Below are positions 52,186 to 64,000 of a DNA stretch of 64,000 nucleotides, piece by piece. The stretch's first letter is position 1; every line of letters begins with the position of its first letter. The translations under genes were made by a program, and so were the position numbers. Origin of the DNA: Desulfatiglans anilini DSM 4660 (lineage in GTDB: Bacteria; Desulfobacterota; DSM-4660; Desulfatiglandales; Desulfatiglandaceae). A model generated the notes under the pieces. It saw nothing but the letters and a program-made list of their open reading frames with translations, searched no databases and was not told the origin of the DNA. The stretch spans positions 1 to 64,000 of the forward strand of contig NZ_AULM01000017.1 in the NCBI RefSeq assembly GCF_000422285.1. Reading direction: 5' to 3'.

Positions 52186-52227
52186 CAGGTTGAATTCAGT
52201 CCGTTGGAGAGCAGACAGGAGGTTCAC

Positions 52228-52707
52228 GTGTCCCAGATCAACCCGGATGAGGTGTTTGACGATTTTGCAGAAATGGTTGCCGCGGAGCCCGGCGGCGAGG
52301 CTATTCGATCCTGCTATGCCTGCGGCACCTGCAGCGCCGGATGCCCGGTGCGGCGGGTGAACAGCGCCTACAATCCACGCAAGATCATTCGCATGATCCT
52401 CTTAGGCTTGAAGGACAGGGTTCTGGCGAGTGATTTCATCTGGCTTTGTTCGAGCTGTTACACCTGTCAGGAGCGGTGTCCGCAGGGTGTGAAAATTACC
52501 GACCTGATGACGGCTGTGCGCAACATCGCCGTAAGAGAGGGGTTTTCTCCCTCGGGTGTGGCGATGCAGGCCGATTTGATTCGACGTCATGGCCGACTGT
52601 ATCCTCTGGATGATTTTGACCATAAGAAACGTGAAAAGGCCGGGCTTCCACCTCTGCCGTCCGAGATCGAGGAAGTGGCCCGTCTGCTGGAAACGAGGGA
52701 AAAATGA
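52228..52707 (+). CDS. hdrC: Heterodisulfide reductase subunit C-like ferredoxin protein
   Basis: 159 residues. Two [4Fe-4S] motifs are present, CYACGTCSAGCP and CSSCYTCQERCP, as in HdrC. It passes electrons between HdrB and HdrA. The GTG start at 52228 has CAGGAGG upstream. It overlaps hdrB by 4 bp and begins a four-gene operon. The repeat tip ends 42 bp upstream of the start. Confidence 0.92.
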   Translation: MSQINPDEVFDDFAEMVAAEPGGEAIRSCYACGTCSAGCPVRRVNSAYNPRKIIRMILLGLKDRVLASDFIWLCSSCYTCQERCPQGVKITDLMTAVRNIAVREGFSPSGVAMQADLIRRHGRLYPLDDFDHKKREKAGLPPLPSEIEEVARLLETREK

Positions 52708-53591
52708 ACCGATATGCATTCTTCCTGGGCTGCACCATACCCGCCCGCTCCCGCAATTATGAGATGTCGGCGCGAGCGGTTGCGAAGCGGCTTGGATTGG
52801 AGATCGTCGATATTGCGGATTTCGGGTGTTGCGGATTTCCGATGAAGGCGACGGACCAAGCGGCGGCGGGTTTGCTTGCGGCCCGAAATTTGGCACTGGC
52901 GGAGGCCGCAGGGATGGACATCTGCACCCTCTGCAGCGCCTGCACCTCGATGTTGTCGGAGGAAGCGCACCGCCTGGCTCACGACGCGGGGCATCTCGCA
53001 GAGGCCAACCGGCATCTGGCAGGGATCGGCCGCAGTTGCAGCGGGACGGCGCGAGTCAGGCATTTTGCCCGGGTGCTCATTGAAGACGTGGGGCTCGACC
53101 GGATCAGAGAGAGTATCACCGTGGACCTGAAAGGTCTTCCAGTGGCGATTCATTATGGGTGCCATTACCTCAAGCCTTCGGAGATCTATCCCGGCTGGGA
53201 TGATCCCGAGGCCCCGAAATCGATCGAACGGATCCTGGAGGCGATCGGTGCGCGGCCGGTGGCCTATGCGGGTGAGAAGGACTGCTGCGGCGGCGCGGTC
53301 CTCGTGGCTGATGAAGATACGGCCCTTGGCATGGCAAAAGGAAAACTCGATCATGTCAAAGCAGCCGGGGCGAAGACCCTGTGCGTTGTTTGTCCCTTTT
53401 GCAGTGTCATGTACGACGACAACCAGAAGAGCATCGAGAACAAATTTGAGACGCGATACCAGATCCCGGTCCTTTTCCTTCCTCAGATCATGGGCCTTGC
53501 CATGGGGGTGGACCGCAAGGAATTGGGGCTCAATATGAATGTGGTCAAGACGAAGCAGCTGACGGGGGAGATCCTTGGACAGGACGAGTGA
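52704..53591 (+). CDS. hdrB: Heterodisulfide reductase subunit B-like protein
   Basis: 295 residues with two CCG domains. The first has FFLGCTIPARSRNYE and FGCCGFP followed by CTLCSACTSML; the second has HYGCHYLKPS, KDCCGGA and CVVCPFCSVMYD. In methanogens these Cys bind the noncubane [4Fe-4S] clusters that reduce the heterodisulfide. In sulfate reducers and syntrophs the natural disulfide partner is unknown. Overlaps hdrC by 4 bp and the next gene by 17 bp. Confidence 0.92.
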   Translation: MNRYAFFLGCTIPARSRNYEMSARAVAKRLGLEIVDIADFGCCGFPMKATDQAAAGLLAARNLALAEAAGMDICTLCSACTSMLSEEAHRLAHDAGHLAEANRHLAGIGRSCSGTARVRHFARVLIEDVGLDRIRESITVDLKGLPVAIHYGCHYLKPSEIYPGWDDPEAPKSIERILEAIGARPVAYAGEKDCCGGAVLVADEDTALGMAKGKLDHVKAAGAKTLCVVCPFCSVMYDDNQKSIENKFETRYQIPVLFLPQIMGLAMGVDRKELGLNMNVVKTKQLTGEILGQDE

Positions 53592-54597
53592 AGATGTTTT
53601 GGTGATTGGTGGAGGGATCGCCGGGCTCACCGTGGCGCTGGGGCTGGCAAAGGAGGGCTGGCGCCCCTGGCTGATCGAAAAGGAAGATCGGTTGGGGGGG
53701 CATGCAGCCGCCTATGTCTGCAAGGCGGTCGAAGGGGAGTGTCAGAGGTGCGGCGCATGCCTGGTCGACCTGGCCTTGAAGGAGCATGCGTCGGAGGCCC
53801 GGATCAAGACGCTGGTGAACGCCGCGATCGAGAGGATCACGCCGTCGGGAAGCGGGCACCTCGCTGCTCTGGAAACCCCGGATGGTTTGGTCGAGCAGCC
53901 TTTCAGGGCTGTCGTTTTGTGCCACGGTTTCACCCCCTTCGATCCCCGCTCCCGGACCAACCTGGGATATGGGCGTGTTCCGAACATCATGACCGGGCAT
54001 GAGCTCGAGGCGATGCTCAAGGTTACCGGCAGGGTGCTTCGGCCGAGCGACGGGGCGGTTCCGCGGCAGATGGCCTTTGTGCAGTGCGTGGGAAGCCGGA
54101 ACGCCAGGCTGGGACATCCCTACTGTTCCCAGGTCTGCTGCGGCTACGCGCTGCGGATGGCCAGGCAGATCAAGAACCGTCTGCCCGAGACGGACCTGAC
54201 CTGTTTTTATATGGATATCCAGACCTATGGGAAGGATTTCCCCGACGTCTGGCCCGGGTTGGGCGGGGAGATCCGCTTTGTTCGGGAGATCCCGGGCGAT
54301 TACTTCAGCCTCGAAGGGGATAGGGTGGGAGTCCTGGTCGAAACGGGGGATGCCGTCGAAGAGCTGTCGTTCGACTTGCTGGTGCTGTCCGTGGGCATGG
54401 CGCCCTCTCCGGATCAGGATCGCTTCTGCGAATGGTTGAACGCACCGGTGGGGGCTGAAGGATTTCTGCGGTCGGATCCTGACAGCGGCGTATTCGTCGC
54501 CGGTAGTGCTGCAGGCCCCATGAGTATCGTCGACAGCATCGCCCATGCGCGGGCTGCGGTGAGGGACGTGGCGGGTTTTCTGGAGGGTCGGAAATGA
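53575..54597 (+). CDS. HdrA-like/QmoA-like FAD oxidoreductase (half-size)
   Basis: 340 residues, about half the usual HdrA. VLVIGGGIAGL at residues 8-18 is the FAD Rossmann motif. A cluster-binding insert has C49, C56, C59 and C62, as in HdrA/QmoA. A C-terminal FAD-binding GVFVAGSAAGP segment completes the flavoprotein. The start is TTG 53575 overlapping hdrB by 17 bp; no in-frame UGA is present, so it is not a selenoprotein. It overlaps the following gene by 4 bp (ATGA). The Hdr electron-bifurcation flavin would lie here or in the next protein. Confidence 0.88.
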   Translation: MDRTSEDVLVIGGGIAGLTVALGLAKEGWRPWLIEKEDRLGGHAAAYVCKAVEGECQRCGACLVDLALKEHASEARIKTLVNAAIERITPSGSGHLAALETPDGLVEQPFRAVVLCHGFTPFDPRSRTNLGYGRVPNIMTGHELEAMLKVTGRVLRPSDGAVPRQMAFVQCVGSRNARLGHPYCSQVCCGYALRMARQIKNRLPETDLTCFYMDIQTYGKDFPDVWPGLGGEIRFVREIPGDYFSLEGDRVGVLVETGDAVEELSFDLLVLSVGMAPSPDQDRFCEWLNAPVGAEGFLRSDPDSGVFVAGSAAGPMSIVDSIAHARAAVRDVAGFLEGRK

Positions 54598-56135
54598 AGT
54601 TGGGAGAATACGATAAGACAGTCTTGGTTATAGGAGGCGGACCGACCGCATGGGAAATGAGCCGTTCCCTCGCACAGGATGGAATCCCTGTCATGGTTGC
54701 CGCGCCTGACGACGCGGAGCGGGCCGATATGCCGTCCGGGGTCGAATGGATTTTGGGGGCGCAGGTGACGGATGTCATCGGGCAGGTCGGGGATTTTGCC
54801 GTCTGGTTGAAGGCCGGGGGCAAGCGGTTCGAGCGGCGCGCGGGGGCCATCATCCTGGCCCTGGATGCAAACCGTCAGCCGGGAGTGCTGCCTGCCGGCG
54901 CGGCCTTCGGTGAACGTATCCGGGCCATGACCGAGGCCGAAGACGTGCTGTTCGGTCGACAGGGGCATCCGTCCCTTCGAAGGGTGATTGTCCTGGACCG
55001 TTTGGATGGGTTGTCGACGGCGGCATCGCACGAGCGGCTTCTGCGGTTTGCCGTCAGGGTTCAGGAAGAGTGCAACGCCACGGTTTATGTCTTGACTTCC
55101 CAGGTGAAGGTTGCTTCGATCGGTCTCGAAATCCTGTATGGTCGTTTGAGGGACGGCGGAGGGCTCGTTGTCAAGCCGGATGCCGTTCAGGTGGAGACGG
55201 GAGACGATGCGGTCAGGATTCGTTTCAGGGATACGGTTCTGGACGAAGACGTGGTTCTGGAGGCGGATATGCTGGTCGCAGCCGAAGACGAGGCCCCTTC
55301 TCCGGAGCTGGAGCGTCTTGCGGGGGTGCTGCGCATCGAGCGCGACAAGCAAGGGTTCCTGCAGGCCGACAATGTCCTGCGGCGGCCATGCCTGACCAAC
55401 CGCCGGGGCGTTCTTTCAGTCGGTTCGAGCGCCGCCCCGTCGACGCAATGGGATACAGAACAAGGCGTCACGGCTGCCACGGTCGAGATCCGTGAGCTTT
55501 ACCGCTGGATCGAAGAGGAGGACCATCCGGACACCATCCTATACAACCGGGATTTCTGCGCATTCTGTTTGACGTGTTTCCGGGTCTGCCCCCACGGCGC
55601 GATTCATTTTACCGACCGGCCGAATTTCCTGCCGCTTGCCTGCCAACGTTGCGGACTTTGTGCCGCCGCCTGCCCGGGCGAGGCGCTGGAACTTGTCGGC
55701 TACGAGAAGGAAACCTTTTTCAAGACGTTGAGTAGCCTCAAACCCCTTGATGTGGAGGGTTCGAAACGGATCGTCGCCATCGCCTGCACGAAATCCGCCG
55801 GCCGGGTGCTGAATGCTGCGCCAGCGGATGCGGAGATCAGAAAGGGGCTGGCTTGGGTGGAGGTCCAGTGTGCCGGGACGATTCGGACCACCTCTCTCCT
55901 GCGGCTGCTCGCCCGTCCCGGACTGGTGGATGGAGTCCTGGTTCTGGCTTGCCACAATGGGAACTGTCGATCGGGGACGGGTACGGTCGTTGCCAAGAAC
56001 CTGGTGGAAAGCGTCAAGGTCCTCCTGAAGGCCATTGGCGCGGACCCGGGGCGGATCGGCTACATCTCGACTGCGGCCAATGACGAGGTCGAGTTGGCCC
56101 GGCAGATCACCGCGTTCCGCGACGGACTTCGCTGA
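54594..56135 (+). CDS. HdrA-like / ferredoxin / MvhD fusion protein
   Basis: 513 residues. An N-terminal Rossmann domain has LVIGGGPTAWEMSRSLAQDG. Two [4Fe-4S] motifs follow near 321 (CAFCLTCFRVCP) and 350 (CQRCGLCAAACP). The last about 90 residues are MvhD/FrhD-like (VEVQCAGTIRTTSL, LACHNGNCRSGTG). Such fusions couple Hdr to an electron donor such as a hydrogenase or formate dehydrogenase and resemble QmoB. No donor gene is adjacent, so the partner is unknown. Confidence 0.88.
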   Translation: MKLGEYDKTVLVIGGGPTAWEMSRSLAQDGIPVMVAAPDDAERADMPSGVEWILGAQVTDVIGQVGDFAVWLKAGGKRFERRAGAIILALDANRQPGVLPAGAAFGERIRAMTEAEDVLFGRQGHPSLRRVIVLDRLDGLSTAASHERLLRFAVRVQEECNATVYVLTSQVKVASIGLEILYGRLRDGGGLVVKPDAVQVETGDDAVRIRFRDTVLDEDVVLEADMLVAAEDEAPSPELERLAGVLRIERDKQGFLQADNVLRRPCLTNRRGVLSVGSSAAPSTQWDTEQGVTAATVEIRELYRWIEEEDHPDTILYNRDFCAFCLTCFRVCPHGAIHFTDRPNFLPLACQRCGLCAAACPGEALELVGYEKETFFKTLSSLKPLDVEGSKRIVAIACTKSAGRVLNAAPADAEIRKGLAWVEVQCAGTIRTTSLLRLLARPGLVDGVLVLACHNGNCRSGTGTVVAKNLVESVKVLLKAIGADPGRIGYISTAANDEVELARQITAFRDGLR

Positions 56136-56404: not shown

Positions 56405-59400
56405 TCAGGGTTCGTTGGGCGAGGGTATGCTTTCGAGTGCCTGATCGAACTTACGGGCGATCAGGTACTCGAATTCTTTGCCGATGAAGTCCCTGTTTTT
56501 TTTCAAGAATGATTTGATGCTATTCCAATAGTCCACCAGATCTTCAGGGTTGTGAATCGTCAGGAGGATGTTCTCGATCTCTGTCAATTTTTCCCGTCTC
56601 AGATTGTCCTTCCTCAATTCATAGAAGTCGTTCAGCCGTTGCTTCTGCTCTTCGAGAAGGCCGATTTCCCACGAGCGGTCTGCAAGATCACGGAATATCG
56701 CGTGCATTTCACCAAAGTCGTGGCATAAGGTCATTTGCCTGTCCGCCTGATGCACCAGCATGTCCGTGATTTCTGTCAATCGCTTTTCATAAGACCTTTC
56801 GAGCTTCAACTCATAATCGTCCGTTTGAAAGGGATATCTCCTCAGCGATCTGAGGCTGTAGTGGAAGTAGTCTTTGAGTTGATCTATTTTGTCGATACTT
56901 TGCATGTAAACGATCTTTTCTTCGATATCGAGCTGGTCTCTGAAGTCGACGGAGAGGGTATTGGGGAACTCCTGCTTCCTCAAAATGAGGTCGGTCTTGC
57001 TGGTCAGCAGCCGTTCCAGTTCCTGCCTGTCGTTCCAGATCTTTTCGATCGTAATGCTGTGGAGGTAATCGTTCAAGGCTTCGTATCGTTTGTCGATTGT
57101 CCGGCTGACAGGATAAAAATTCAGGAAGAGCGGCTTTTTCTGGGCGAATGCGCGTTTGGCGACCAGGAGCACCAGTGCAAGGAGCTTGATCTGGTTGTCA
57201 TAACTCAAAAAGTTGCTTACGCGTTCATACCAGAAGATGCGGATTTCGTCGTCGACGAGGTGATTGAGCAGAAAATGGCGGAGCGATTCGGGGAGCGTCT
57301 GGAGCGTGTTGTAGATTCTCAGGGCTTCGAAGGCCTCTCTTTCGAAGGTCGCGTAACCGATGCTGGTGAATTTGTGCCGTTTGTAAATATACTCCAGAGG
57401 TGTTTTCAGGACCAGATTGGCTATATCGATGAATTCCACATACCGGATGCCGCGCAGGCGCAGGATACGTTCGACCGAGAAAATCATCTTGCCGGCGGAG
57501 ACGCGTTTCGTTTTCGGCAGTTTTTCCCATCGGGTCGATTCGAGATAATCCCAAGGGGTTGTTTCCTCCGTCAGCCCGGTCTGCTGATACTCTTCGAGGG
57601 CGAAAAAGATCCCGCCGCGCAGAGCGAAACGCTCCTCGACAGCCTGGGACAGAGTGGTTTTCCCGTCCAGGATTTCATGGCAGAGGGTTCGCGTGCGGAA
57701 CATCCAGTCAGCGAGGTCTTCAAGAAGGAGATCTTCCCGGATGGCTGAGAGCATGATGAAGGAAAGCACGAAAAAGGCATCGAAAATAAGCGGGTCGCCG
57801 GCTTGGAGGACATGCTGGATAGCCAGGAAGGAAAACTCCCCCCGCAGGATGTGGTGCAGCAGGCTGTGGTGCCTTACCAGGAAAATGAGGGCGTTCAATT
57901 CCTCCGTGTCCATTCCATAACGCTGATCCAGAGGTTCATGGGAGAGGATGCAGGCGCCGGCGTCCCCCAGATCCCCAGGATTGATCAGACCATGGTATTT
58001 CTCCCGCAGCTCGGGGATCCGCCCGATGTCCTGCATGATGAACGCCTTGACGAGGGCCCTGAATACAGGGCGATTGCCTCCGATACGGTCCACCGTTCTT
58101 TCCAGTTCTTCGATCTGGGGTTCGCTCGTCCCGATAATGCCGGTGGCCATCGGTCCGAACTCTTTTTTGGCGAGCTTGTGCAGAACGGACACGTCATGGA
58201 ACGCCTCTTTCTGGTGTGTAAAGAGGGCCTGAAGTTTTTTGGTGGTGGCGATGATGTAGTGGAGTATCGGCGACTTCAGGTAAAGATGACCAGACAGATC
58301 CGCTTTTTCGAGGGCGGTCAGCTCCGGCAGAACGAAAGCGAGCAGATGAGGTGCGTATTGGTGAAGGAGATCCAGGTTTGTGTAGACCTCGTCCGGCTTG
58401 AAGATGTTTTTCAGAAAGTTTGCGCGCAGATTCTCTTTCAGCTCTTCGGCCCGGCTGAACCAGCGACGTTGCCGGGCAGGAAGCTGCAAGGCCTGTGTTT
58501 CGTTCTGTTCGGTGATCCTCTGGTGGCTTTGACAAAAGCTTTCGATGTTTGAAAAAAGGGCGTCGAGGGTCCCGAGCTCTTCGAGGGGAATGTCCGAAAG
58601 GTAGCTTCCCTCGAGCTGTGCCGCGAGAACCTGCAGCTGCCGGGTGTCCCGCTCGATGTCGATGTATGAGATCTCGAGGGAGTGAAAACGCTCATTGACC
58701 CTGAATTGGAAGCCGGTTCCGATGACGAAGGATGTTTTGGCGAGGTAAAGCTGTCGGCTGAACTGGCGCAGGAAAGCCGGGCTGAGATATTGGGTGTTGA
58801 TGGTGCGCACTTCTTTTTCAACTCTCCTGACCCGTTTTTCGGCATCGGCTGTTTCGAGGTCCGCCAAGATGGGATTGAAGTTGATAATTTCGTTTCGGGT
58901 GATATGCACGCTGATCCACAGGAGAATATATACGAGGCGGCTCTCCATACGCTGGGAAAGATGACCGGTTCCATGGAACTCGATGCCGAAGAACTTGCGG
59001 TAAAACTCGGGGGCCTGAATGGGGTCCGATTTCAGATAAGCGGATTCGAATTCCCCCAGGGTTTCGACGAACTGAATAGCGTTCTCTATCCTGAGGATCC
59101 TTTTGGGATCGTAGTCAGCTAGGACCTCCTTTTCCATGGGGCCTTTGTGGCAGAGTTCCTGCCAGTTTTCCATAAATTCAAAATGATTCATCATTTTGAG
59201 GCTTTTGCGGACGATCTTGCTCTTGATTCCCCCCATGGAGGTGATCTTTTCATCGAGGAGACGGTCCCAGTCAAGGTCGCGGTTGGTCACGATCCGAACG
59301 GTGTATTCATAGAGTTCGAACAGCTCCAAAAGCTGCTCCGAAGGCATCGGAGACTGGCGGGCCGCCTCTGTTTCAGCCATGGTCATCAGGCGGCAATAAC

Positions 59401-61123
59401 GGAGGAGGTTGACCGCCTGCTTGGGTTCCAGGGTCCTGGCCAGATCGGACAGGGGTTTCAGCGCCTTTTCGTTCATTTTTCCCGAGATGACGCGTCCCAT
59501 GGCGCTGTGGCTCAATACGATGAGGGCGATTTCCCGCAGCTCATGATGCGAAAAACCGAAAAAACGAAGATAGGGAAGGTTTTTCAAAACGCGGGTGCGG
59601 GAGCCTTCAATGCCGTCGGGATTCAGGTACTCGCGTATTTTCTTGAGGCGGTTGATCTTCTGAATCAATTTGAGGGCATCGTTCAAGGCGGGATGACGCC
59701 GGGCCTTGTTCTCGAGGGGCTGTCGAAGACGGTCGATGTAAATTTGAGGACTGCCTCTGTATTTTCCTTTCTTGAGTTTTTCGAGCACCCTGAGAGTCCG
59801 CAGCACGTATTCAAAGGAGTCTCTGTAGTCGGCCAACAATTCCGTCTGGCACCCGATCAGCCTGGACTCCGTGACCTCTTCGACGATTCTGGCGATCTCG
59901 GGCTCGATGACTTTTTTCTGGCCCAAATAGTTGATCAGATAATCCGGTGCGTAATCTTTGCACGAAAAGCGCTCCGCCCAATCTTCGGCCACATACTCGG
60001 GGACGAGCGGCTTCAGGAAGATTTTATCGAAGAAAATGGAGACCGTTCGCTCCCAGTTTTTGGCCTGGTTGCGAAGAAGGGCGGGTTCTGCAAATTCAAA
60101 ATCGAAATAGGGAAGGGTTTCAATCTCCTCAACCGATATTTCGTCAATCGGTTTTCCTTTGGTGAGGTGGTCGAGAACCTCTTGTTCAATATAGAGGCCG
60201 CTCAAATAATTCTGAAAATCAGAGATATTAATAAGGCTTTTGGATCCGTTGAACTTGTATCTCTTCTTCGTCTTAAAAATATGCGTAAATAGGGCAAACT
60301 TTTTTAATTCTCTCAACGTTTTAAGAGTCACTTCGGTGCTGCGATTGGTTTTTTCAGTGTGATATTTTGCAATTATAAAAATTTCACCATTGTCTTTCAA
60401 CAAGCGATACACATGCGCTAATATATAAATCGCATATTGATCAAGCCTTCTCCTTGACAGCATTTCGCGGGATAATGCGCTGAATTTTTCAAACAGAATG
60501 ATCTCGTAAATATCACTTGTAAATAAGATAAGATCGAAGGTTATGTTGAGGTTTATCAACGTATCAATCGAATCTATCACGATAAATTCATGATCTTTAA
60601 AAGTGAGACTGATTTCATTGATGACAAGGTCATCCTGTTGTCCAATGATTCCGATCGTGCTGTGCTCTTTTAAAAATTTCTTTTTGCTGTGATACTCGAT
60701 GATTCTGCCGATTTGATAGACTCTCGAGCGGATATGCGCAAGGGTGTTCGATAGAATGTGAAAAGGGATGAGATAATAGGGCCGCCCGAGACTCGAAAAA
60801 CGGATCAGAAGGCCGATCCGTTTGTAGATTTGATTGATTCTCTTGAAGTTTTTGCGAATGTCTTCAGGGTTGTCGAGATCGATGGATTGAAGAAATTCTA
60901 TATCATCATCGTCGAGGCGGTCGTATATTTCGAAAAGGCCCAATCCATAGGCATTGCCGCCGAAACGGCTTTGCAGTTGGGACGGATGTTTGAGAGACGG
61001 AAATGTCCCCAGAAGGATGTCTGCCGGGTCGATGCCAAGAGAAGCGTATTCTTCAGGGCGGATCGGTTTGAAGGAGCTTTCTTCGAGGAGGTGTTCCGTA
61101 GAGAGCGATTCACTGGGATCCAT
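56405..61123 (-). CDS. Very large protein with methyltransferase-like and GlnD-like HD regions
   Basis: About 1,572 residues from ATG 61123 (a TTG eight codons upstream is also possible). Around residues 155-290 a Rossmann-like pattern (STIGIIGQQDD, FDLILFTSDIYE, RLLKDNGEIFIIAKY) resembles a degenerate SAM methyltransferase. Around residues 1025-1150 a GlnD-like HD region appears: AFIMQDIGRIPE, where HD is replaced by QD, and LVRHHSLLHHILRGEF. The rest is helical, with no signal peptide. I do not recognise the family as a whole. The 5' part (60180-60750) is much more AT-rich than its neighbours, a sign of transfer or special constraint. Alone in its transcription unit. Confidence 0.7.
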   Translation of the reverse strand: MDPSESLSTEHLLEESSFKPIRPEEYASLGIDPADILLGTFPSLKHPSQLQSRFGGNAYGLGLFEIYDRLDDDDIEFLQSIDLDNPEDIRKNFKRINQIYKRIGLLIRFSSLGRPYYLIPFHILSNTLAHIRSRVYQIGRIIEYHSKKKFLKEHSTIGIIGQQDDLVINEISLTFKDHEFIVIDSIDTLINLNITFDLILFTSDIYEIILFEKFSALSREMLSRRRLDQYAIYILAHVYRLLKDNGEIFIIAKYHTEKTNRSTEVTLKTLRELKKFALFTHIFKTKKRYKFNGSKSLINISDFQNYLSGLYIEQEVLDHLTKGKPIDEISVEEIETLPYFDFEFAEPALLRNQAKNWERTVSIFFDKIFLKPLVPEYVAEDWAERFSCKDYAPDYLINYLGQKKVIEPEIARIVEEVTESRLIGCQTELLADYRDSFEYVLRTLRVLEKLKKGKYRGSPQIYIDRLRQPLENKARRHPALNDALKLIQKINRLKKIREYLNPDGIEGSRTRVLKNLPYLRFFGFSHHELREIALIVLSHSAMGRVISGKMNEKALKPLSDLARTLEPKQAVNLLRYCRLMTMAETEAARQSPMPSEQLLELFELYEYTVRIVTNRDLDWDRLLDEKITSMGGIKSKIVRKSLKMMNHFEFMENWQELCHKGPMEKEVLADYDPKRILRIENAIQFVETLGEFESAYLKSDPIQAPEFYRKFFGIEFHGTGHLSQRMESRLVYILLWISVHITRNEIINFNPILADLETADAEKRVRRVEKEVRTINTQYLSPAFLRQFSRQLYLAKTSFVIGTGFQFRVNERFHSLEISYIDIERDTRQLQVLAAQLEGSYLSDIPLEELGTLDALFSNIESFCQSHQRITEQNETQALQLPARQRRWFSRAEELKENLRANFLKNIFKPDEVYTNLDLLHQYAPHLLAFVLPELTALEKADLSGHLYLKSPILHYIIATTKKLQALFTHQKEAFHDVSVLHKLAKKEFGPMATGIIGTSEPQIEELERTVDRIGGNRPVFRALVKAFIMQDIGRIPELREKYHGLINPGDLGDAGACILSHEPLDQRYGMDTEELNALIFLVRHHSLLHHILRGEFSFLAIQHVLQAGDPLIFDAFFVLSFIMLSAIREDLLLEDLADWMFRTRTLCHEILDGKTTLSQAVEERFALRGGIFFALEEYQQTGLTEETTPWDYLESTRWEKLPKTKRVSAGKMIFSVERILRLRGIRYVEFIDIANLVLKTPLEYIYKRHKFTSIGYATFEREAFEALRIYNTLQTLPESLRHFLLNHLVDDEIRIFWYERVSNFLSYDNQIKLLALVLLVAKRAFAQKKPLFLNFYPVSRTIDKRYEALNDYLHSITIEKIWNDRQELERLLTSKTDLILRKQEFPNTLSVDFRDQLDIEEKIVYMQSIDKIDQLKDYFHYSLRSLRRYPFQTDDYELKLERSYEKRLTEITDMLVHQADRQMTLCHDFGEMHAIFRDLADRSWEIGLLEEQKQRLNDFYELRKDNLRREKLTEIENILLTIHNPEDLVDYWNSIKSFLKKNRDFIGKEFEYLIARKFDQALESIPSPNEP

Positions 61124-61172: not shown

Positions 61173-62276
61173 TCATTCAGCCCTGAGTTTGATGTCGGAG
61201 TTTGGAGGCAAAGGCCATGTTTTCAAAGCGGAAACGAAGCGCTCCCAGACAGCTCCCAACCCGTTGGGTTGCCGGATGCAAAAAATGATCATGAGCAGGA
61301 TGGCGGCTGTTTCCCAGACGGGGAACGGAAAATGGGACCAAAGGGCGCTAAATGTGCCGGAGATTCGATGGCTTGCAGAGCTGAGTACTTCAGAAAAAAG
61401 GACCAGGAAGGATGCACCGAAAAAGGGACCGATCAGCCGCCCCACGCCTCCGAAAAGCACCAGGAGGATCAGTACAAGGGATAATGGGACTCCGAAGCTG
61501 TGCACCGTCGGCAGGCCATAAAGCAGAAAGAAAAGACCGCCTGCCATGCCGGCGCAGAAAGCGCAGACAGAAAAGCCCAGGCATGTCAGAGGCCATTCCC
61601 GGATGCCGGCTGCCGCAGTTGAAGGGCGGTCTTCACGCAGGCTCCTGAGCGCCCTCCCATACCGCGTGTGAAGGAGATTCTGGAGCAGGAGGGTGATCAG
61701 GATGGCCGTGAGCAGCGCCACGATCATCAGGGTTGGTTGAGCGTGAGGCTTGAACGACGCTGAAGCAGGCACCAAAAGTAAGACCGTTTGATTCCAGAGA
61801 GGGTCGTGTTTTGGAAGAAGGGCCAATCCATACGTGATGAGAAGTTGCGCCAGGAGGGTCACCGCGGCAAGATGAAAGGGTTTAAGACGAGCCGAAGGCC
61901 ACGCGAAGAACAGGAAACTCAAAGCGGCAGCGCTTGTTCCGCCGGCAGGCACGGCAAGCCAGAAAGGCATGGCGAGCTTTTCCAGGAAAAACATCGTGGC
62001 AACGGCGCCCGTACCAAATAAGGCACCCTGGCAAAAAGAAACCTGTGCAGAAAATCCGATCAGGAAATTGAGTCCTTGAGCCGCAAGCGCATAGATGGAA
62101 ATTCTAGTCAAAAGAGACAGTCCGTTTTCAGGCGCCCATAGGACGAGGGCAAAGCTGATCAGGCCGAGAGGCAGCAGAAAATGCAGGGTTGTCGAGGAGC
62201 GCCGAATCGGATGAATGATCCGAGAAACGAGGGCTAAATCCGAACCGCTGTCTTTTTCTGCCTTTCGATAGGGCAT
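61173..62276 (-). CDS. livM: Branched-chain amino-acid-type ABC permease LivM
   Basis: 367 residues with about 8-10 membrane segments. The GLNFLIGFSAQVSFCQGALF helix and the cytoplasmic TRYGRALRSLREDRPSTAAA loop, which contacts the ATPase, identify LivM; VLFGGVGRLIGPFFGASFL is the late conserved segment. It would import branched-chain amino acids or aromatic/aliphatic acids. LivH, its obligate partner, is not found where expected. A minus-oriented repeat tip lies 28 bp upstream of the start. Confidence 0.85.
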   Translation of the reverse strand: MPYRKAEKDSGSDLALVSRIIHPIRRSSTTLHFLLPLGLISFALVLWAPENGLSLLTRISIYALAAQGLNFLIGFSAQVSFCQGALFGTGAVATMFFLEKLAMPFWLAVPAGGTSAAALSFLFFAWPSARLKPFHLAAVTLLAQLLITYGLALLPKHDPLWNQTVLLLVPASASFKPHAQPTLMIVALLTAILITLLLQNLLHTRYGRALRSLREDRPSTAAAGIREWPLTCLGFSVCAFCAGMAGGLFFLLYGLPTVHSFGVPLSLVLILLVLFGGVGRLIGPFFGASFLVLFSEVLSSASHRISGTFSALWSHFPFPVWETAAILLMIIFCIRQPNGLGAVWERFVSALKTWPLPPNSDIKLRAE

Positions 62277-62304
62277 GTTGTGTATCAGCCTGAAGAATTA
62301 ATGA

Positions 62305-62446
62305 GTTTCCATCCGGAAATGGTCTTTTTGGCCAATCTCGGCGTCAATCTGCACGTTTGTTTGTGCGGCGACCTGTAGGTCGCCTCCGCACAAACGCTTG
62401 ATTTCCTTGATATTGGCCAAAAATCCTCATTTCCGGATTGGAGGCT
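62305..62446 (-). repeat. Dispersed palindromic repeat copy
   Basis: GTTTCCATCCGGAAATGGTC, TTTTTGGCCAATCTCGGCG, centre GGCGACCTGTAGGTCGCC, ATTTCCTTGATATTGGCC and CATTTCCGGATTGGAGGC. Full-length; its tip ends 28 bp upstream of livM. Confidence 0.9.
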
Positions 62447-62539
62447 CGGTCCTACCGGGACATCATTTCCGCATGGATCTAATGGGTGTCTCTTCGTGCG
62501 GAAACGGTCTTTGGGTCGCCGTATAAGGAAAAGCACCGT

Positions 62540-62582
62540 TTGACGCCGGGAATGGCAAAAAAGATCATTTCCGAGCGGAAAC
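62540..62582 (+). repeat. Partial repeat (right arm only) at the truncated gene end
   Basis: TTGACGCCGGGAATGGCAAA then ATCATTTCCGAGCGGAAAC matches the right arm of the repeat and stops at the TAG of the acyl-CoA synthetase-like ORF. Confidence 0.65.
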
Positions 62583-63790
62583 TAACAGGGCATTCCGAAT
62601 CTGTCTTCGAGCGGATGCGCTCGCATCTCTTGTAAGGGTATGCCATAGGCCCTCAAAAAGTCCAGTGTTTGTCTTTTCAAAGGGGAGCCGTGTGTGTAGG
62701 CGGCTCGACAGGCTGCAAGGCCGATCCGCGCCTTCAGCGGTCCGCAGAGCAGGTGGCGAAGGGTCCAGCGCAGGACCGTTTTCAGGCGTGAGGTCCGGCC
62801 GAAGGAAGCGGCCTCGGGGTCGCCGGCGTTGAGCGAAAGATTGAGCGCATGAAGCCTTTTCAACACGGGTGTGCCGCCTTCTACGGCGAGTCGGATCTGT
62901 GCGGCGAATTCCTGCCAGAAGGTGCATCTCGCCACGACAACATCGGGGCGGATCAAACCAAGGTCTTCGGCGAGTGTTTCAGGTGTTTCAGGAAAGTGGA
63001 TCACCATTCCCGCGCAGGTGGCGACCGCAAGAGACCAGAATTGCTCGACAGGAGATGGCGCAGGTTCGAAAGACGCCCAGTTCGCCCCTGAAAGCCACGG
63101 AAAGGCCTTCAGCCAGGTTGCGGCAGGAACAATCAGGCCTCGATGCGTCATAGGGACCAGGGGCGCAACTAAATTCGCCGAATCCCTCAAAATCAGGCTG
63201 GCCTGATCGTCCGGGTTTCCCGCCCACAATTCTTTGATAAAAAGATCAGGCTGGGCGGTATCGATTTCTCCACCTATCTCGATGACCTCAGCCAGCCCAA
63301 TCAGCCAAGGATTGTCCCAGTAAGGGTGCGTCAGGCTTGGATCGACATAGATCACCCTTTTCAAAGAGGGGAGATCCTTTCGATAAAGCAGCAAATGATC
63401 GATTTCGCCATATCCTGATGCAACAAGCAGAGAAGCGTGAGTCCTTCTCAAACATTCCAGTGTGGCGGCTGACAAGGGGCCGCTCGGCAAAGAGACACTT
63501 GTGCAGCCGAGGGCTTGGGCCGCAAGGGTGCAGAACAGCCATTCCGACTGGTTGCTCAGGAGGATCGCTATCTTTTCTCCGCGCCGCACCCCAAGAGCGA
63601 TAAATCCGAGGGCAATTTTTCTGGTGTAGTGCAGATATTGGCGCCTGGAATGGGTTTCCCAGTGACCCAGACGCATTTCCTTGATGGCGGGATGGCCATC
63701 GATATGGTCTTCGGCCTGCCGCCAAAGGATCTGTGGCAGGGTAAATCGGGTCAGTACGGCAAGGTTTTCGATGTCAGATACCGGATTCAA
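62582..63790 (-). pseudogene. Decayed AMP-binding acyl-CoA synthetase (3'-truncated)
   Basis: 402 codons, against about 600-650 for the acyl-CoA synthetases usually placed inside deltaproteobacterial liv clusters. The N-terminal fold is recognisable (RQYLHYTRKIALGFIALGVR, KIAILLSNQSEWLFCTLAAQ, LGCTSVSL). Where the ATP P-loop TSGTTGxPKG should stand the text is LRDSANLVAPLVPMTHRGL, so the catalytic loop is lost. The ORF stops where the YGxTE motif would follow (FLRAYGIPL), and a repeat right arm begins exactly at its TAG. TTG 63790 is a likely start. I infer a degenerate gene, although the frame is free of stops. Confidence 0.65.
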
Positions 63791-63821
63791 TCTGCAACTC
63801 CGTCCTGCAATGATGGGAAGT

Positions 63822-64000
63822 TTAAGCAGGAAAATGTGCGGAAAGCGGTTCGGAGCGGCCAAAATAGGAATCGAGCACGCGGGGATGATTCTGAATGAAT
63901 TCCGGCGCCCCTTCGGCGAGCTTGGCACCGAAGTCCAGGACGACTACTCTCTCGGCAAGTTCAAACACCCTGTTCATATCATTTTCGACCAGAAGAATGG
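63822..64000 (-). CDS. livG: Branched-chain amino-acid ABC transporter ATPase LivG, C-terminal part
   Basis: Only the last 59 codons are in the window. ILLVENDMNRVFELAERVVV followed by LDFGAKLAEGAPEFIQNHPR and SYFG is the H-loop-to-C-terminal segment of LivG-type ATPases, with N replacing the usual H in the VEHDM H-loop. That His normally senses the ATP gamma-phosphate, so this copy may be impaired. It precedes the acyl-CoA synthetase-like ORF and livM on the same strand. Confidence 0.8.
   Translation of the reverse strand, partial: ILLVENDMNRVFELAERVVVLDFGAKLAEGAPEFIQNHPRVLDSYFGRSEPLSAHFPA

Follow-up and report, generated by a model that had tools for sequence, protein, structure and literature searches.

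The gene at positions 56405 to 61123 of the window, by which we mean the whole 64,000-nucleotide stretch of Desulfatiglans anilini DNA that was analysed, encodes a 1,572-residue protein in which a methyltransferase-fold domain is very probably followed by two tandem HD/alpha-beta modules, the second of them with a GlnD-type neck and HD domain. The best explanation overall, to which we assign a probability of about 42%, is that this is a cytosolic, vertically inherited protein of the Desulfobacterota, built of retired enzyme modules and acting as a sensor or scaffold.

The gene, its family and its conservation

The original prediction had placed a protein of about 1,570 residues at these coordinates, which proved right; the strand, which it left unstated, is minus. 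A single intact frame runs from an ATG at 61123 to a stop codon ending at 56405, and the plus strand of the same interval is riddled with stops. The D. anilini genome contains one copy, the sister genome carries an intact copy with 97% identity, and the gene is also single copy in most relatives that have it. The features discussed below are the following.

56405..61123, minus strand: whole gene, 1572 aa
60929..61072, minus strand: N-terminal strap (HPS..LxSRFGGNAYGxGLFE), residues 18-65, the most conserved block of the family
59894..60766, minus strand: class I methyltransferase-like fold, residues 120-410, from structure match; GxGxG loop absent, D184 kept
60134..60766, minus strand: AT-rich segment, residues 120-330; GC3 0.45 vs 0.69, raised dS, lowest dN/dS of the gene
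59024..59866, minus strand: HD-like copy 1, fully degenerate, residues 420-700; keeps H539 (65/66 members) in GHS/TxxGRxxxGK
58604..59026, minus strand: alpha/beta segment copy 1 (FHGTGH ... INFNP ... GTGF), residues 700-840, from predicted secondary structure and self-alignment
58289..58606, minus strand: helical neck, residues 840-945, matching the neck before the HD domain in GlnD and tRNA nucleotidyltransferase
57644..58291, minus strand: HD-like copy 2, GlnD-type, residues 945-1160, from profile and structure matches
58019..58033, minus strand: QDIGR (residues 1031-1035) where GlnD has HDIGK; Q in 50/66 members
57866..57871, minus strand: H1085 and H1086, retained histidines of the HD core
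56894..57271, minus strand: alpha/beta segment copy 2, residues 1285-1410, from model and self-alignment
56408..56896, minus strand: C-terminal long-helix region, residues 1410-1572, from the AlphaFold2 model

Most genomes of the family and of the order have a full-length orthologue, with 43-57% identity. Profile matches were obtained in 62 of the 85 genomes of the class and, for the phylum, in 52 of 395 genomes sampled, the weakest matches in these counts being only HD-domain cross-hits to proteins of other families. Named relatives include Delta proteobacterium NaphS2, Desulfatiglandales bins, Desulfacinum, Desulfosoma, Desulfoferrobacter, Syntrophobacteraceae, Dethiosulfatarculus and Desulfarculus. 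The orthologue tree separates by order-level lineage into a Desulfatiglandales-like clade, a Syntrophobacteraceae-centred clade and the Desulfarculaceae. The labels 'Myxococcota' and 'Aminicenantes' attached to some loci were rejected as evidence of transfer, being titles given to metagenome-assembled genomes by their submitters, and the loci fall within Desulfobacterota clades. Some orthologues appear as two frames or two matched pieces (G026/L125 at ~9485; G057:C33 at ~9050), perhaps through assembly error or as pseudogenes.

Conservation is near-uniform and almost without gaps along 1,560 residues of the family; column counts given here refer to 66 non-redundant members. A comparison of the genus's two genomes gives a dN/dS of 0.068 over the whole gene and 0.026 in residues 120-330, as against 0.38 for the neighbouring livM, 0.23 for the AMP-ligase gene and 0.25 for livG, and the gene is under strong purifying selection. 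A single-copy gene of 1.6 thousand codons maintained in this way over several order-level lineages of sulfur-associated bacteria is probably important to its hosts.

The domain combination had been described as unfamiliar, and our searches agree with that description. Neither Pfam, NCBIfam nor PDB sequence searches with the protein gave a match, nothing significant came from Pfam and PDB when 27 members or their profile served as queries, and the curated family libraries searched (Pfam, NCBIfam) have no model for this family. Degenerate GlnD/HD pseudoenzymes were also sought in the literature, without result. The anti-phage defence models of PADLOC gave 0 matches to the window protein; a weak match to PADLOC PbeC was seen in 3 of the 27 members of alignment A1 (best E 7e-4).

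A methyltransferase fold without its glycine loop

In the AlphaFold2 model of residues 1-960 (pLDDT 86, confident), residues ~121-407 adopt a class I methyltransferase fold with the seven-strand Rossmann arrangement (best VIA Z 14.5, 164 residues aligned, rmsd 3.4). A methyltransferase-like pattern had been noted at residues 155-290 from the sequence, and the structure prediction proposed as a check yielded both this Rossmann fold and an HD fold. The protein shares the Rossmann fold with class I SAM methyltransferases (METTL6, 8OWX, Z 14.5), but differs from them in the absence of the glycine-rich SAM loop and in its unusual N-terminal strap. Across the 66 members motif I (GxGxG/DxGxG) is absent: columns 157-165 read IGLxTxxxD, only G158 is conserved, and position 161 is mostly T or S with no conserved glycine after it. 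The acidic residue after strand 2 is kept (D184, D in 52 and E in 7 of 66), as is an LLKPxGE motif, and strongly conserved polar residues of the N-terminal domain are N57, Y59, N97, R108, D184, D204 and H281.

The strap region contains the invariant residues G30, G39, H46, P47, G55, G56, Y59, G60, G62 and E65, and its GGN(A/V)(Y/F)G is kept even in the most distant homologues. Its pLDDT is locally low, and in view of the model the strap is likely to be a loop ordered by a ligand. Judging from the motif columns, the fold would not use SAM in the usual way. Dre2/anamorsin (4M7R), which is in the Foldseek match list of this domain, offers a precedent: it too is a larger protein whose N-terminal domain is methyltransferase-like, devoid of the Gly-rich loop and with no detectable SAM binding (PMC3440578), but it is a eukaryotic Fe-S protein without HD modules.

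The main rival to a sensor or scaffold starts from this same domain and supposes that the N-terminal domain is enzymatically active as an atypical SAM-dependent methyltransferase, its strap replacing the glycine loop and the HD-derived arm recognising the substrate. The class I fold itself, the retained acidic residue and LLKPxGE motif, the invariant strap with H281, and a dN/dS that is lowest in residues 120-330 all speak for such an enzyme; it is nevertheless rather unlikely, given a position 161 that offers no glycine loop and the distant homologue L209, in which a gap (in an uncertain part of the alignment) covers a good part of the fold's C-terminal half, the remainder of the protein being retained.

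A degenerate GlnD-type HD module

In the AlphaFold2 model of residues 740-1572 (pLDDT 90, confident), residues ~825-1157 form a neck and a helical core of the HD superfamily. The best match is 3WFQ (Z 13.9), the alignment with which begins at model residue 86, that is, protein residue 825, followed by PPX/GppA at 10-11 (PPX 10.9) and TmpB at 8.6. When residues 880-1180 were compared by hhalign with aligned GlnD proteins from the same lineage, the match reached Prob 96 and E 4.4e-9, whereas the reversed profile gave E 0.19; residues 900-1130 pair with the GlnD neck and HD domain, QDIGR lying over HDIGK and FLVRHH over FLIRHH. The family profile also matches a GlnD at E 2.2e-4 (G008:C187) and, up to 4.5e-7, proteins of 450-500 residues in other genomes, all at the same HD positions. 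Profile comparison and fold therefore agree with the original prediction of a GlnD-like HD region at residues 1025-1150 with QD as its first pair.

The region had also been called degenerate, and the H...HD...D metal ligands have indeed been lost. The first histidine is Tyr in 46 of 66 members, the HD pair is mostly QD and otherwise RD or YD (His in 1/66), and the final Asp is replaced by Met, Ala or Leu across the family, which leaves only D1032 (46/66) and H1086 (62/66). Since members from the Syntrophobacteraceae still have an intermediate histidine (THAERGA), the decay is stepwise. Further stepwise decay is seen in distant, shorter homologues with frames of 1253 and 1147 aa (L208, L209; G131, G163), which no longer have either the HD2 motif or the C-terminal alpha/beta segment but retain the N-terminal strap, H539, FHGTGH and IN(F/L)N.

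The likeness to GlnD, the PII uridylyltransferase/uridylyl-removing enzyme, comprises the neck and the HD domain with its surrounding helices, but here the catalytic His and Asp residues are replaced, the HD module occurs twice and the length is 1,572 rather than ~890 aa. At the sequence level, no stretch matches GlnD outside the neck and HD domain, no nucleotidyltransferase match to Pfam was found among 27 members, and neither the GlnD ACT profile nor Pfam revealed tandem ACT domains; a nucleotidyltransferase fold in degenerate form may still lie within the alpha/beta segments. True GlnD genes are separate in the D. anilini genome: two full-length genes lie in opposite orientation ~3 kb apart (G000:C106 8531-16386), and several relatives also have two. 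The C-terminal HD domain of Ppx/GppA (2FLO, 6PBZ, 8JGX) shares the HD fold (Z 10-11), but no actin-like domain was found by sequence in our protein.

The solved neck-HD structure closest to the model belongs to a tRNA nucleotidyltransferase with an HD-like body (PDB 3WFO-3WFS, 'tRNA processing enzyme'), aligned over 241 residues with only 14% identity, from which our protein differs in having no catalytic head and in the loss of the HD signature. Taken with the weak similarity of profiles to PolyA_pol-HD proteins from the same lineage (E 6.6e-4), this would fit an RNA- or tRNA-binding protein descended from a tRNA nucleotidyltransferase/HD ancestor, with the neck and HD domain as an RNA cradle and the methyltransferase-like domain as a pseudo-modifier. 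We consider such a protein improbable: the GlnD match is far stronger (E 4e-9) and GlnD acts on protein, the structural match may reflect merely the common HD fold, and no nucleotidyltransferase head was found, residues 640-860, 1260-1440 and 1-430 giving no match to the own-lineage PolyA_pol profile and none to Pfam.

An internal duplication

A second, more degenerate HD-plus-alpha/beta copy, missed by the original prediction, is present at residues 420-940. Residues 445-920 are collinear with residues 979-1529 (E 3.2e-6, with 0.12 and 0.15 for the reversed controls), and the match holds for the HD parts alone (420-690 vs 940-1270, Prob 92.9, E 3.8e-7) and for the alpha/beta parts alone (690-940 vs 1270-1572, E 9.7e-5). 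From this self-alignment of both halves, the architecture is therefore a methyltransferase-like domain followed by HD1, alpha/beta 1, HD2 and alpha/beta 2. Compared directly with the GlnD profile, HD copy 1 gave only E 0.28-0.33, its link to GlnD running through copy 2, and the alpha/beta segments had no match to GlnD NTase/ACT or PolyA_pol profiles.

A putative sensor or scaffold

As the usual catalytic residues are gone, a role as sensor or scaffold is likelier than that of a standard enzyme, and from the ligand columns neither HD copy would be expected to carry out the usual hydrolysis of nucleotides. The strap and the methyltransferase-fold pocket would bind a small ligand, nucleotide-like or SAM-related, the long HD/alpha-beta arm would pass this signal to a partner protein, and the whole could thus serve as a sensor or scaffold. 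This regulatory mechanism, in which ligand sensing is passed to a partner, is put forward tentatively, at somewhat less than even odds. Of the functions raised by the original prediction, a large signalling or stress protein is possible, with signalling or scaffolding favoured.

Several observations are consistent with a sensor or scaffold: the loss of the HD ligands and the Gly-rich loop across 66 members; the predicted folds, and the GlnD match and internal duplication, each with reversed controls; the persistence of strap, H539, FHGTGH and IN(F/L)N in distant homologues without the HD2 motif; a dN/dS of 0.068 vs 0.23-0.38 in decayed neighbours, together with near-uniform conservation and mostly single copy number; the absence of relatives among plasmids (tblastn) and scanned viral contigs; and the Dre2 precedent. 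Against it, lost consensus ligands are no proof of lost catalysis, the seven conserved polar residues of the N-terminal domain could equally form an active site, and no partner gene is conserved across all lineages.

With still greater reserve, we suggest that the protein stands for a kind of giant regulator not described before: duplication of a GlnD-type HD module, loss of its catalysis and fusion to a strap-gated methyltransferase-fold ligand pocket would have produced a sensor of metabolites, or a scaffold, that serves sulfate-reducing and syntrophic Desulfobacterota. Should the protein indeed be a regulator assembled from pseudo-enzymes, it would illustrate how GlnD-type HD domains are recruited without catalysis and would offer a concrete target for knock-out and ligand screening in sulfate reducers and syntrophs.

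Genomic neighbourhood

Two genes upstream belong to a branched-chain-type ABC transporter/AMP-ligase operon (window 61173-63928; L206), which is decaying in this genus with relaxed dN/dS.

61173..62276, minus strand: LivM-like permease immediately upstream across a 49 bp gap; relaxed selection
62582..63928, minus strand: AMP-ligase remnant, ~255 C-terminal residues missing in comparison with relatives

The AMP-ligase is without its C-terminal third, and no trace of LivH or LivF was found in the 3 kb searched at this operon. Many relatives share the same upstream genes, and in the Desulfatiglandales-like clade the gene directly follows a LivF/G-type ATPase, AMP-ligase or LivM gene, often with a 3 bp gap, in 26 of the 40 loci with enough upstream DNA. 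This arrangement would suit an accessory or regulatory subunit of a branched-chain-type ABC transporter/acyl-CoA ligase operon, a role we hold to be very improbable: the transporter operon precedes the gene in 0 of 23 loci of the Syntrophobacteraceae/Desulfarculaceae clade, and in the window's genus it has decayed while the 1,572-residue gene stays intact under strong purifying selection, so that independence from the transporter is the better reading. Downstream, a convergent group on the plus strand (window 52204-56135) encodes a CCG-domain (HdrB-like) protein, an FAD oxidoreductase and an FAD/4Fe-4S/FlpD protein (Hdr/Mvh-type electron transfer); such redox genes also adjoin the gene in several relatives.

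The AT-rich stretch

The AT-rich N-terminal coding part noted originally was confirmed by GC3, which is 0.41-0.56 over codons 1-400 and ~0.61-0.74 in the rest of the gene. That the gene was acquired horizontally, which had been raised as one possibility, is barely credible: orthologues at the same locus follow a vertical distribution through most of the family and order, the tree follows orders, no plasmid or viral sequence matches, and the shift, found in one genus only, is limited to residues ~100-330, where dS is raised and the nearest relatives are ordinary. For residues 120-330, GC3 minus that of the rest of the gene is -0.24, five SD from the mean of 66 family members (-0.006, SD 0.048). 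The sister genome has the same AT-rich part, whose dS is 0.395 vs 0.15-0.18 elsewhere in the gene. The closest relatives of this part are themselves ordinary clade members, which favours a local mutational shift over transfer.
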